From positions 24,153,400 to 24,217,399 of the forward strand of contig NC_088305.1 in NCBI RefSeq assembly GCF_032854445.1: a stretch of 64,000 nt of DNA, read 5' to 3'. Made by a program: the position numbers and the translations under genes. Positions 15,170 through 45,400 of the stretch are shown one piece after another. Position 1 is the stretch's first letter. Each line of letters starts with the position of its first letter. This stretch comes from Liolophura sinensis (taxonomy: Eukaryota; Mollusca; Polyplacophora; Chitonida; Chitonidae). The notes under the pieces are model-generated. The model ran no database searches. It had not been told where the DNA came from and saw nothing but the letters and a program-made list of their open reading frames with translations.

Positions 15170-15470
15170 CTTCAGGCACTACGGCTTTTTCATTTATTTT
15201 TTCCAAAATATAATCTTGGTTCCCACCTTCATGAAATATGCTCATTTTATTATAACCAGTGTAAATTTTGGTTTGCGTGAAAACAATGAGCTATCTCCAA
15301 AATGCCGGAAATCGGTCCCGTGCTGAATACGGCAACCAGGTTATTTAATGTCTCTACAAGCCTTTGAATAGTTATTAAGAGACAACGAAATTTAGGTAGA
15401 GAAATAGTAATAATAAACAGGAAATCTCTCTCCAGTCGTTCTTCAGTTCAGCAGAAATTAGCATTCACGC
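15170..15470 (-). CDS. Exon 43: terminal exon, six codons plus stop, with 3' UTR
   Basis: Strong acceptor TATTTCTTGCAG ends at 15,471. With the G carried over from exon 42, the exon reads G-VNANFC-stop, with TGA at 15,448-15,450. The phase fits and the Gly continues the Pro/Ala/Gly tail. AATAAA signals on the minus strand lie at 15,246-15,251 and 15,193-15,198, giving a 3' UTR of roughly 200-280 nt. The tiny coding part makes this the least certain exon. Confidence 0.5.
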
Positions 15471-18400
15471 CTGCAAGAAATACATAGATTTGAATTAGCT
15501 ATACCTATATTTTACATAAACTTCTGAGCTTAAAATTCCCTGTAAACTAAAACAAAGTTATAGGTATAGGTGAAAAACTCAATGAGATAAACACGAAATA
15601 TGCCTTCATGCAAAATATCTGGAATTGTGGTAGAAAATATGGTTTATTTAATATGAATAAAAAATATAGGCTAAATACAAGTAACGGTAAAACGTTGAAT
15701 GTTCTTATGTGGAGAACAGATATTAAAATCTCATCAGGGATACTGAGTGTAAACAGTGTAAAGTCATGATTATATACAGTATGCTCAGTGATAAAAGTGG
15801 TTAGTTAACAACATATAACCAGAAATGGTGAGTACAAGAGTTTATACTTACACGTAATTCAAACGAAACAGTCATACTACTGGGGGTAACTGCTTTACTT
15901 CAAGTATGGAGCTGTTAAACCAGAAAAAACACAACTTTTATCAAAAATTGGATGCAATTTGTTTTTTTTTTTTGTTATTTTGTTTTGAACTTATGGAATT
16001 GTCTTGCTGTTCAATATCATTAATAATATTCAATGTATTTTCTTTCACGCATTTTCCCCTCTGCTTGTACTTTCTTTTATAATTGTTTTTTAATTGCGTA
16101 AGCCAGGGATTCTTATTACACAGTACAACTACAATGGCTTCGAATAAGCAACAAGAGGGAAAGGTACCCGTCTGCTTTAGGGCTTACTTAAAACAGTGAA
16201 CTTGCTTACCCGGGGCTGGACCTGGAGCAGGACCTGAAGCTGGCACTGGAGCAGGGTGAATGGGAACACATGTTGCCGTGCAAGAGGATCCGCAATATTG
16301 AGGACTGCAATGAAAAAACGTCAATTTTTAACAACTTTGATGACCAGAAACATGCCCACTATCTTCGAAGACTGCTGATGAGTAACATAGGACAGAAATT
16401 TAGTGGTCTTGTCTTCTTTTTCTGACTGATTTTAGACCTGGTAAGCCGAAAGTGGATTCGATCTGCCGACATCAGTCGTGGCTTCAAGGCAGTACGGCAG
16501 CCATAAATGTGGCAAACTATAGCCATTTGTACCAACGGTGAATCATAACACTGAGAAATGAAGGACCATATTTACCACTTCGGTATAGCGAAACTTGGCT
16601 ACCTCTTGAAATCCATGAATATTGACCAAAAAATGTGACTATTGGAAACATACTTAAACTAGCCTGAACAATGAGGTCGCAAGCTCGAATCTAGCACTCG
16701 CCATTTTGGCGGAGGTTTTAAGTCAAGTTGTTTCCCAGATACTCAATAGTTTGCTCATGGCAATCCACTTTCCTCCACCTACAAACTTAACGACGGTCGC
16801 ATTCATAGGGCCAGGGGGAGACAAATAACATGGGCGAAATGCTGATTTTTGCCGAGTTCTAAAGTTTAATGTACTACAGGGCAATGAAACTATCATATTT
16901 GAAACCTAGACACATTCTGATTACTTCTCCTGAAAAAATTCTTACCTCAAAGCTATATTCTTCATTATTCATGCTAAAATCTTATTCAAGGCCTATCTCG
17001 CCTGGGTTAAATTCGGTTTGTTGTCGCCGCCATTTCTCTAGTCATGTGACTAAAGAGTGTACTGATGATTGGCTCAGAGCAGCTATGAAATCAGTTCAAA
17101 ACTATGAATAACTGAGAAATTAGCGATTACGCCGTTAAACATCACTGAAATATATAAATATATAAAATGATTTCCTACTTACACACAGATAGAACCTGCA
17201 ACACAAAGAGCTGAACTGCAGGGATTGTAGGGACAGCTCACAGGCGCCTTACCCCCGGGACATACTGAAACAGAGAATATAGAGTAATATAGTCCTGGAA
17301 AAAAGTTTGGAATATTGTTTTCACTGATGATAGCATTTACCAGAAACATACTTTTGTGCGCCTTACATTGAATGCACACATTCTTGTTTGGGTGGAAAAT
17401 GTAGTGGATTATGTCCCCTTTCAGCTCATACACACCATTATTGCTTGTGTCACCTGAGCAAAATTACAGTTGGGAGAAAACATGACCATCCATTTCTCAG
17501 TGAAAAAGTCATGTACGCTGACATGATTATAACTTAACCTTGTAACTCTTATAAAAGCTCGGTTAAGGCATGCCAGTGCTCCAGAGTGTTTCCAACAATA
17601 CTGCTGTGATCATGAGACGTCAACTGAGTGCTGCAGTCTGCAACCGTATCGTTGGTTCTTGGTGTCACTCAGGGAGCCGTCTCCAAAATCTTTAAGCGAC
17701 ACCGACAGACGGGTGTGCCGACGCCTAGACCGAGGTCTGGTCGGCCACGAAAGACCACCGAGAGAGAGGACCGGTATCTGGTGAGACTTTGCCGCAATGG
17801 CCGTACGAAGAGTTCCAACCAGATACGCGCTGACTGGATGAGATTTACCAATACTCCTGTGTCAAGCCGCTTAGTGCGATCCAGACTGTTGACTGCTGGG
17901 TATTTGGTAAGGAGGCCTAAGAGGAAGCCTTTACTACAGCGTCGACACCGCCAGGCACGCTTATCCTGGGCGCGGGAACACCTGAACTGGCAGGTGGGAC
18001 ACTGGCGACACGTGATATTCAGTGATGAGTCTCGTTTTGTCGTCTACCGGGAAGATGGCCGTGTGATGGTGCGTCGTCAGGCTCACGAGGCTCTGAACGA
18101 AGATTGCATCATGCCCAGAGTCCAAGGCGGGGGCGGTGGGGTCACCGTCTGGGGTGCTTTTCATAGCACTGGTAAATGCGACCTGCACGTCTTGGATGGA
18201 CACATGAACCAGCACCAATATCAACGGATTCTGGAAACGATAATGCTCCCATTTGCTCGGCAACAATTCAGGGCAAACTTTGTGTATCAGGACGACAACG
18301 CCACGCCGCACCGGACCGAACTGATACGGAATTTTCTGGAACAGGAGGGTGTTGAGCACATGCAGTGGCCAGCCATTTCACCGGATATGAACCCAACTGA

Positions 18401-42400: not shown

Positions 42401-45400
42401 GGCGTGACCACACCCATACCTTTAAACCATCAGCATTTCAATGCCCAGCATATTTACCACAAACAAAAAATGTTGAGTTGCATGTTGCATTGTAGATTTG
42501 CATCAATGACGAATTGCATTTGACTTTGATGACAAAACACACACACTTTGCTTACGCCCGCGTAAAATCGAGCTGAGATGTCCGTACCAGGCAAAGGCCG
42601 TCTCCTATTTATCCGGCGAGATAAAAAGAACAATGACAAAAATAAATGTGTCCTGTTTTAATGTCACGTGACTCCTGGTACTACAGAGGATGTTTAACAA
42701 AGCTTAGATAGAGACGCGCCCGGGGGAAGAGGAGGCGGTGGAGATAGACCTTCCATATCACAGGTGGTTAATAGCAAAAGTTGTCAACTGTTTGTATTAA
42801 AAGGGAAATAACTACATTTTAGCTGTTATTTTTTGTTATTTTTAGCAGTTTTTGAATTGATACGCATATGGAAAGCTTTAAAAAAATTAATCATTTGACG
42901 TTGTTTAAACAGCCGAAACACGTTACTTCACTGCTTAGTGTAAAAGTTTGAATTCAACTATTATTTCAAACAAGTGGCCTGTTGTTAGAAGTAGAAACTT
43001 ATAATTCATTCCAAAGAAAAAGAAAATTTACAAAATATACACTAATTAGTTGAAGGGAAAAATATAGTATAAATGATATAACAGTGCCTTACAAAGTTTA
43101 GCCAAATAATGTTTTCAAGCCTATTTATAAATACTGTTAGTTTGTTTGGGTTTTTTTTTCGTTTGTTTGTTTGTTCGTTTTCTTTTTTTAAATCTAAAAC
43201 ACACAGCCCTTCAGGTTTGAATATATAAGCAAATATGGAAGGAGTTATATACAAAATTTCGAATGTATATAATGAATACTCCCTCTCAGGGATCAAGATT
43301 TGTAATTGTAATTGCTCTACACTCAAATTTACAAAAAGGAATCAGTCATGTTGAAAACGTGAAAAACAATTCAATTAAAGATAGGAGTATTATGCTTACC
43401 ACAATCTACCACCGCTCCGGCGAATATAAATTCTGCCCGGCATGCTCCACACGTATTAACCCTGAAATAGAAAACATCCACAAATTAACTTCGACTGAAA
43501 GCTTTCCATCATTATTTCATTTCTTAATCACGTGACTTATGACCTTGTACCAATCAATCCGTTGATAAGGTTTCTACATAAAGCTCACAGTGTAAAAATT
43601 TCCACTATATATATATATATATATATATATTATGTCATGTCATTGCTTTGTAGACGATTTCATCCAGGTAGTTGAACGCCGCAAGAGGGAAAAGCTAATT
43701 TTATCATCCATAAGCCCTACTCCAGCAAAACTTCTCCCAAAAGGCATGTGTATTTTTTGCCATCCGTGGTCAATAATGACAACTTTGTTGAGTAATCACA
43801 ACCCCGCGCTGACTCAATGTTTCAAAGCATTAGCCTCCGTTCTGTTGATCTGCCCTTATACTGCCAATTAGGCGATCTCCGGTTCGATTCCAGGTCTCGC
43901 TAGGTCCGGATGTGGTTTTAAGTGAGAACTTTTGTCGGTTTTCTTCACCCGTAAATCTGATCGCCGTCAGTGTTGCGTCAATTTGTTTATTTTATTTGAC
44001 TATTTCTTCCTGTTTAACGCTACACTCGAGCATGTCTCCCTTAAACGATGTGGTTATCAAACAAGAGTGAAAACCACCGACCTCTGGTTAGCTACTGACG
44101 TACTTTCCCACCTATGACATTAAGATAAGCTAACCATACCGGAGAGAGACAAGCTGCCTTTCAACGAACGTTATAGGCTGTTCAATCAGCCACACGCGTC
44201 ACTGACCCCTTATTATTATTACCTAGGGCCTCAGCAATTAAAAAAGTAAGGAGAGACAGGTGAACACGAGCCGATCTGATACCTGCAATTCTCGCTCTAA
44301 ATCGTGATGAATGTTACATGAACGCAACACCCAATATTGCCTATAACACAAATGCCCAGCGATTGGATCATATAGTTTACTCACTTGCATACAGCACTTG
44401 GGTTGGCTGGACATGACCGGCCATGACAAGGGTTGCTATAGCAGGTCACCGCAGGGATCCCTGGTGGACAGGCGTGGCAGTAATCTAATGGAATAAAGGA
44501 AAAAGCAAGTTTATAATAAATAAATAAATATAGATTACTGATGATAATGTAATAAAACTGAAACACAGCAACAAAGATACAGTGCGTGTCTTTTTTCTCG
44601 GGATTGTAACATTAGTCTACATAGAAAAAGTGTTTCGGAGGAAAAAGATAAATGTAAAGAACCCGCCAAAGGAAATTTATTTAGTCACACACATAAACTT
44701 TTTTTTACAAATACATGTATGGTTTTAAGCACGTGCATAAAATTGACGTTTACAGATAAAAAAAAATCTGCTGAAAAACGTCACACTGACATTTTTTCAC
44801 GAAACATCGCTAAGAAATACAGGTCATCTCGTTGATACCCACATTGTTACGCATCGGAGATTTTTGAAAGGCAGTCAATTTAATGTGTTTATTGTTAAGT
44901 ATAGTTTTGCCCATCGGTTTCCTCCAGTGAACACATCCGCATTTTTAGCCTTTCATATTCTGATACATCAATACTTATCCGCATTCAGAGCACACATAGT
45001 TGTATATAAAGTGTGATATATATATCGCTCACCGAAATTGCCCACAGAAATAGATGTTAGCAGGTCTGGTGAAGTTTAAACATGAGAACAATCAATTTTA
45101 TAAGTTTTTGATCTGGCTGATATTATTCAGTGTTCACTTGTCCATATGTGTTAGTAGTGAAGCCTGGTATGTACAATAGTCTAAACTTAAATCCCATCAA
45201 TTATGCATTGGCACAAAAGCGAAAAAGTAAAATAACTTACGAAAAACAGCCAGCAAGAGGCTCCCCAAAGCAATACTGCTCCGAATCATGGCTGTTCTTT
45301 AAGACCTCCGAAATGTAGTTCTGTTTTAGTTGTTATCACGGGGGAGATGAAAATCTAAAATAAATATTAAACATAAACAAAAAGGTATCAAAATATGATT

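Follow-up and report, generated by a model that had tools for sequence, protein, structure and literature searches.

How does a gene come to hold 22 consecutive exons of equal length, each encoding one cysteine-rich module, and what would the product of such a gene do? This question is raised by a locus of the chiton Liolophura sinensis, which we analysed within a window of 64,000 nucleotides (C11:24153400-24217399, where C11 is contig NC_088305.1 of assembly GCF_032854445.1). The source fits the mollusc origin that a preliminary description of this DNA had suggested. We found that the predicted product of the locus is a secreted mosaic of 28 six-cysteine modules, here called P, and six eight-cysteine modules, here called A. 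By its sequence, the P module is the six-cysteine unit common to 'ancestral' pacifastins and to the E modules of von Willebrand factor (VWF) and gel-forming mucins. The P array expanded through the duplication of multi-exon units, purifying selection acts on its modules, and the chromosome carries further arrays that are related to it.

The locus and its predicted product

The gene occupies the minus strand from 45289 to 15448 (positions without a contig are those of the window). A splice-site dynamic program that was supplied only with the ATG at 45289 picked the stop at 15448 unaided, and joined 44 exons. Two of these were removed: exon 18437-18312, which is antisense to a Tc1-type transposase frame, and exon 17453-17352, which was unsupported. 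The remaining 42 coding exons join in compatible phases, as the preliminary description had stated, and predict a secreted product of 1,476 residues, instead of the 1,467 given there, with 218 cysteines. All P exons of this model are in phase 1-1, and all six A modules are interrupted at the identical position by a phase-2 intron. The transposase frame (17628-18590, plus strand, 321 codons with no stop in frame) is located within the intron that separates exons 39 and 40, and matches HTH_Tnp_Tc3_2 and DDE_3.

A direct scan recovered the run of equal exons. When segments were required to read AG-120 nt-GT/GC, to be open in phase 1-1 and to encode at least five cysteines, the minus strand gave 23 of them: 22 are consecutive P modules, with one six-cysteine module per exon as previously claimed, and the last is part of the P exon at 22183. 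The single match on the plus strand is unrelated to the P pattern. Similarly, a six-cysteine regular expression matched the minus strand 26 times, whereas none of 40 first-order Markov shuffles of that strand contained a match.

The product would start with a signal peptide, followed by two A modules, 24 P modules (1+22+1), two A modules, four P modules, a proline-rich linker, two A modules and a tail. The six A modules reported earlier thus stand, and their order, given then as A-P(n)-A-P-A, becomes A2-P24-A2-P4-A2. All features of the gene are on the minus strand. Exon 1 (45241..45289) carries the start codon and the signal peptide MIRSSIALGSLLLAVF, with a hydrophobic core, an in-frame stop four codons 5' of the ATG, and a GTAAGT donor with a weak exon-side score of 0.5. 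A module 1, with eight cysteines, spans 43400..44484 (exons 2-3, 44484-44385 and 43461-43400), and A module 2 spans 41129..42040 (exons 4-5, 42040-41953 and 41196-41129). Exon 6 (40754..40870, 117 nt, phase 1-1) encodes a first P module, ahead of the array of 22 (30061..39608), whose 120-nt, phase 1-1 exons begin at 39608, 39185, 38944, 38511, 38120, 37748, 37416, 36586, 35538, 34772 and 34302 (exons 7-17) and at 34049, 33520, 33031, 32777, 32246, 31766, 31512, 31129, 30745, 30478 and 30180 (exons 18-28). Another P module (exon 29, 29432..29548) closes this part. A modules 3 (exons 30-31, 28613..29028) and 4 (exons 32-33, 26455..27526) precede the four P modules of exons 34-37 (21998..26054; 26054-25938, 23756-23634, 23266-23150 and 22183-21998), the last of which continues into the proline-rich linker. 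A module 5 (exons 38-39, 19414..20133) and A module 6 with a Pro/Ala/Gly tail (exons 40-41, 16210..17264) complete the mosaic. The terminal exon 42 (15448..15470), which ends in Cys-stop and has an ATTAAA/AATAAA-type signal at 15349, is the least supported exon. The coding sequence could also end differently, if exon 41 is read through into a stop codon slightly below 16187. Splice signals are the sole basis of exons 1 and 42.

Six cysteines per P module and eight per A module leave two over, one near the N-terminus and one at the last residue. The mature chain contains 14.9% cysteine, and the pI of the predicted product is 7.4. The modules are joined by linkers of three residues, 21 of which fall within a WxxC motif, a motif that can be C-mannosylated. 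We found no N-x-S/T sequon in the predicted product and no dibasic site in the linkers; the three dibasic sites of the whole model are each inside a module. An NCBIfam scan of residues 1-321 returned no family, and scans for Rfam families and tRNAs found nothing.

Family identity of the P and A modules

The cysteine spacing of the P modules is 16-2-1-8-4 in the array and 16 or 18-2-1-7-4 in the flanking P modules, compared with 16-2-1-6-4 in VWF and mucin E modules and 9-2-1-7-4 in insect pacifastins. The conventional pacifastin pattern is Cys1-X9-12-Cys2-N-X-Cys3-X-Cys4-X2-3-G-X3-6-Cys5-T-X3-Cys6. All array modules have its Asn after Cys2 (22/22) and its Thr after Cys5 (22/22), with three residues to Cys6. 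Its Gly two to three residues past Cys4 is absent from the array, where Gly follows after one and after four residues (22/22), and present in five of the six flanking P modules. None of the window modules has its Cys1-Cys2 loop of 9-12 residues, since 26 of the 28 have 16 and the other two have 18. The preliminary description had pointed out that 16 residues is long for arthropod pacifastins; a loop of 13-20 residues, found in all 28 modules, is that of the class named 'Ancestral' (PMC13388995), which P modules would join by loop length, and which is further characterised by its fold (a TM-score criterion), by the disulphides C1-C4, C2-C6 and C3-C5, and by inhibition. As described there, the members of this class resemble P modules in their six cysteines, the Asn after Cys2 and a Gly in the Cys4-Cys5 loop; they occur frequently in molluscs and, in many cases, within extracellular mosaics. 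The chiton gene differs from that description by its 28 modules per predicted gene, 22 of them one-exon copies, by the Cys4-Cys5 loop of eight in the array, and by a P1 residue that is mostly Thr.

Profile searches bear out the announced resemblance to pacifastins and to subdomain 1 of VWC. At E<=0.1, the 28 modules matched seven Pfam families in all, including Pacifastin_I (28/28) and VWC (27/28); SVWC, the third profile proposed as a check, was not among them, and FnI_RECK was missing or below its cut-off for single modules. Single modules scored up to 35.6 bits with Pacifastin_I (PF05375, gathering cut-off 27.9), the values being 35.6 for 26054, 27.9 for 22183, 27.2 for 29548 and 21.7 for one array module, and joined modules gave 42.9 (three array modules), 53.2 (residues 1081-1476) and 25.5 bits (residues 1-321, with five P modules). 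Joined modules also exceeded the cut-offs of VWC (PF00093; 44.9 and 52.6 bits, cut-off 27.6) and of PF23244 'VWF' (43.8 and 47.7 bits, cut-off 27). A VWC domain has two subdomains and 10 cysteines. P modules have six, and the match ends at profile position 36-43 of 57; they are not full VWC domains, because subdomain 2 is absent. A full VWC domain run does exist elsewhere in the genome, in a 736-codon frame at C8:36149784-36151670, with an A-like match nearby at C8:36176262.

The relation to E modules goes beyond the preliminary description. When one array module was compared with the Protein Data Bank (PDB), the pacifastin SGPI-1 ranked first (E 0.001, residues 8-37 only), followed by E modules of mucins and VWF (residues 1-37). 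A profile of the 28 modules scored up to 43.7 bits with mucins and VWF (whole chain), and 37.5 bits with SGPI-1; the best single E module reached 32.1 bits among the alignments shown. In small hidden Markov models (HMMs) built from these matches, 27 of the 28 modules scored higher as E module and only 23756 scored higher as pacifastin, a comparison that ranks the families without proving either, because the two models differ in length and depth. The E modules (e.g. 7zwh, 8oes, 9gvj, 7pov) align with P from end to end, with spacing 16-2-1-n-4 and the identical 16-residue loop, and share with the array a Trp two residues before Cys5. They differ by a Cys4-Cys5 loop of six residues, against eight in the array and seven in the flanks. 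Moreover, E modules are described as parts of VWD-C8-TIL-E assemblies (PMC11207715), whereas Pfam scans of residues 1-321, residues 1081-1476 and the 28 single P modules gave no VWD, C8 or TIL. Nine pattern matches to the P profile in viral contigs were all unconfirmed.

Other known systems are similar in part. The Trichoplax adhaerens gene tapp-1 (PMC2689174) is a giant pacifastin-like array, reported with 42 domains in 88 exons, a signal peptide in exon 1 and one dibasic site only, but each domain is spread over two exons, and the available text of that report does not mention A modules. A shell protein of Lottia gigantea described as VWC/pacifastin (PMC4094399) is, like the chiton product, from a mollusc, extracellular and rich in cysteine (13%), but it is acidic, with a pI of 3.87 versus 7.4; the two are likened by description only. 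In the available text of PMC5554399 pacifastin is listed among salivary products and nothing more, and in that of PMC12005716 we found no mention of it.

The A module has eight cysteines in about 50 residues. Pfam gave nothing worth keeping for nine A modules, the best E-value being 0.066, in one module. The best PDB match, a weak one, was NvCI, a metallocarboxypeptidase inhibitor of the snail Nerita versicolor (4a94, 5mrv), with E 0.058 for the six window modules and 0.069 for the nine. Against single modules, NvCI gave E 0.32 with A4, and ranked third with A2 (E 3). When NvCI was shuffled with its cysteines fixed, 1 in 20,000 sequences reached the real score with the six modules; with the nine-module profile this was 0/20,000 by full score and 1/20,000 by domain score. 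NvCI and the A module have six cysteines in register and the motifs CPxxPxAxC and GxRVxC in common. They differ by two extra cysteines in the A module, and by the distance from Cys6 to Cys7, which is of 1-3 residues there and of 10 in NvCI. The counterpart of the NvCI disulphide Cys27-Cys38 (PMC5511257) probably differs in the A module, because those cysteines are 1-3 residues apart. NvCI is reported to inhibit via two free C-terminal residues (PMC6780499, PMC5511257), and all six window A modules continue into further sequence instead of ending in such a tail. Common descent of the A module and NvCI is, on this comparison, a tentative idea that we place on the unlikely side. A search of the chiton genome with the NvCI core gave no match at E<=10, and is uninformative since it was run without a positive control. 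The A modules themselves had single-module matches on C1, C2, C6, C8 and at another place on C11, the better ones with E from 9e-5 to 0.017 and the rest from 0.03 to 1 or weaker.

Growth of the array and related loci

The identities between exons show that module types recur with a period of three. The lag-3 excess was matched by 1 in 20,000 permutations for all 22 modules, and by 864 in 20,000, a weak signal, for modules 1-10 alone. Modules 11-15 and 14-18 are 96.8% identical over 1,895 columns (97.8% in exons and 97.5% in introns, with a unit of 1.27 kb), and the last rounds of duplication must therefore be recent. As these modules are one duplicated block, the 22 equal exon lengths cannot be counted as separate pieces of evidence. 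A nucleotide profile of the P exons further identified four dead copies in introns, all on the minus strand and each with stops or lost cysteines: after module 7 (36696..36829, nhmmer E 3.6e-21, with stops and lost cysteines), module 10 (34437..34510, E 6.4e-8), module 13 (33126..33204, E 3.9e-8) and module 16 (31870..31930, E 8.7e-6). The four modules that they follow share one branch of the module tree. We infer that the unit once comprised four exons and that the dead copies are what is left of the fourth.

Purifying selection on the P modules is apparent in a summed dN/dS of 0.226 over 231 module pairs (0.189 without modules 20 and 22), with a median pairwise ratio of 0.11, and in the nucleotide steps on the module tree, which number 41, 31 and 117 at codon positions 1, 2 and 3.

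The window gene is not a singleton, because it is one of several arrays clustered on the same chromosome. In the genome searched (609,464,459 bases, 632 contigs), Pacifastin_I gave 117 matches (203 candidates, 150 scored), all except five on C11. We fetched 19 stretches, and counted 166 intact P modules by regular expression in 15 of them (L009-L023) plus the window. P modules occur at seven further places on C11: 70 at 14.24-14.30 Mb, 28 at 24.807-24.811 Mb, 14 at 11.45 Mb, 10 at 23.53-23.59 Mb, 7 at 23.36 Mb, 7 at 24.14 Mb and 2 at 23.76 Mb, in addition to the 28 in the window and one further module at 14.239 Mb. Three of these places also have A modules or half-modules, upstream of the P modules at 14.30, 23.76 and 24.806 Mb. 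Each place is counted here as a cluster of modules rather than as a gene. With permissive splice thresholds and no control, phase 1-1 exons could be read for 70/70 modules at 14.24-14.30 Mb, 14/14 at 11.45 Mb and 7/7 just left of the window, and for 11 of the 19 in the clusters at 23 Mb, and therefore such exons are not universal. At 24.807 Mb nearly all of the 28 modules lie in one frame of 1,171 codons with a period of 129 bases; in this intron-free array (L009 from 4693, C11:24.8077-24.8113 Mb) P1 is Leu in 25 of the 28 modules.

The run of modules at 11.45 Mb (L018-L019, plus strand) is similar to that at 14.27-14.29 Mb (L015-L016, minus strand), on opposite strands and 2.8 Mb apart, with the 11.45 Mb modules nearly copying part of the 14.28 Mb locus; this reflects either a recent inverted duplication or an assembly duplicate. 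Many modules at C11:14.25-14.29 Mb (L013-L016) run on into ...PCCK or ...ICCE, if the exon extends that far, and the extra cysteine directly after Cys6 may cross-link modules in pairs.

The window also contains large satellite arrays at 937-2753 (47 bp unit), 51997-53559 (40 bp), 53559-54637 (48 bp) and 20712-21646 (26 bp), the last within the intron between exons 37 and 38. A dispersed repeat on both strands has frames that by eye resemble WCFTPYSRIFHLYDGGQHYGGRKPGRARGKPTT, e.g. at 9329-9547 (minus), 41196-41411 (plus) and 5581-5799 (plus). A 109-codon frame without Pfam match (25056-25382, plus) lies opposite the intron between exons 34 and 35.

Possible roles: extracellular scaffold or many-headed inhibitor

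What might the product do? We lean, with the balance about even, towards a scaffold outside the cell that is built of pacifastin/E-type modules and stays unprocessed. The predicted protein would stay uncut and work whole, as a disulphide-stiffened rod with three-residue linkers between modules, in the extracellular matrix, mucus or a secretion. Flanked by A modules in this rod, the main contribution of the array would be to make the protein long and stable and to offer a binding surface many times over. Flanking modules with Lys (23756, 22183) or Gln (26054) at P1 could still inhibit proteases, and the unpaired cysteines near the N-terminus and at the last residue might, as a speculation, link chains. 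The linkers of mollusc pacifastins are reported to be little suited to processing, and many domains of the ancestral class to belong to mosaics of extracellular-matrix type (PMC13388995); the cysteine-rich Lottia protein, for its part, is listed in a shell proteome (PMC4094399). In the array, P1 is Thr in 19 of the 22 modules, Ala in two and Gln in one, so most array modules are unlikely to be standard inhibitors of trypsin or chymotrypsin. The signal peptide, the 14.9% cysteine, the lack of sequons and the three-residue linkers without a dibasic site, together with the predominance of Thr at P1, are the reasons to favour the scaffold over the many-headed inhibitor considered next.

Two observations weigh against the scaffold. 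The P2 Thr (Cys5+1) is present in 136 of 150 modules, versus three of eight typed VWF/mucin E modules, and this retention favours, as far as comparison of residues can tell, a kept inhibitor loop. In addition, amino-acid replacement at sites 26, 29 and 35, the last of which is P1', is as fast as synonymous change or faster, a behaviour that could fit a recognition surface. They show 6, 8 and 6 amino-acid steps on the module tree, a number that site 6 equals with 6; sites 12, 38 and 39 also reach the synonymous rate, but the synonymous count there is zero.

The product could instead be a high-capacity, many-headed canonical inhibitor of serine proteases, in which case each array would have targets of its own, for example microbial or elastase-like proteases. 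This is the strongest competitor, although we consider it somewhat less than probable. Its main support comes from the P2 Thr and from the loop pairs. Within an array a single reactive loop, or a small number of them, recurs many times, and the P1-P1' pairs are particular to the locus: mostly T-N in the window, L-K and L-V at 24.807 Mb, T-D at 24.14 Mb, and E-R, N-D, Q-R and T-K at 14.24-14.30 Mb. Pairs E-R and E-M are described as dominant in molluscs (PMC13388995). Besides the P2 Thr, the six loci largely conserve the Asn after Cys2 (141/150) and a Gly four residues before Cys5 (137/150). Yet Thr at P1 is uncommon among tight inhibitors, and the window array varies more at P1' than at P1. 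The main evidence against this reading is that the mutual information between loci ranks P1 18th and P1' 14th of 27 anchored sites, which rules out P1 as a special site of divergence between arrays. This count covers 150 of the 166 modules, at six array loci; it leaves out 14 modules at 11.45 Mb, near-duplicates of the 14.28 Mb locus, and the two at 23.76 Mb, which are too few. A broader proposal joins two ideas. In the first, the giant A-P mosaics clustered on the chiton chromosome would serve as polyvalent reagents, and unit duplication would have homogenised each of them around a reactive loop of its own. In the second, NvCI would have been set free from the A module, an extracellular domain, much as arthropod pacifastins have been proposed to derive from matrix proteins. 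We regard their conjunction as distinctly unlikely.

A binder of bone morphogenetic proteins (BMPs) or of other growth factors, of chordin or kielin type, acting through VWC-like modules, is very improbable. The VWC matches given above fit it, and chordin is among the PDB matches (E 2.3e-5, about 21 residues), but subdomain 2 is missing and both solved E modules and pacifastins match better. Finally, that the gene model is an artefact, made of several adjacent genes or with a copy number inflated by assembly, is likewise very improbable: the start was supplied to the dynamic program, the exon joins are predictions and the blocks repeat a 1.27 kb unit with 96.8% identity, but the 42 exons join in compatible phases, the P array contains no N run, arrays recur elsewhere, and the divergence of about 3% between blocks exceeds the heterozygosity of 1.24% reported for Liolophura japonica (PMC11068029). 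A scan for internal signal exons gave no candidate on the plus strand, and the only one on the minus strand lies within the A4 exon but in another frame. This is weak evidence because exon 1 itself was also missed by the scan.

Giant pacifastin-like arrays are already known, as shown by tapp-1 (PMC2689174). In the literature searched, in which subscription journals are mostly not included, we found no description of the chiton gene. Three things seem to be new relative to it: an array with one module per exon combined with A modules, its relatives elsewhere on that chiton chromosome, and the record left by dead exons. The locus brings the pacifastin module and the VWF/mucin E module onto one sequence, in a mollusc, together with an A module that lacks a Pfam family and recurs elsewhere in the chiton genome, with some weak matches. 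Because reactive loops are locus-specific on one chromosome, matrix scaffold and inhibitor can be directly told apart with recombinant modules. The growth of the array can be read exon by exon, from live units, dead exons and a single-exon paralogous array. With its 22 near-identical one-exon modules and related arrays on its chromosome, the chiton gene is a good system to understand how such arrays grow and what purpose they have.

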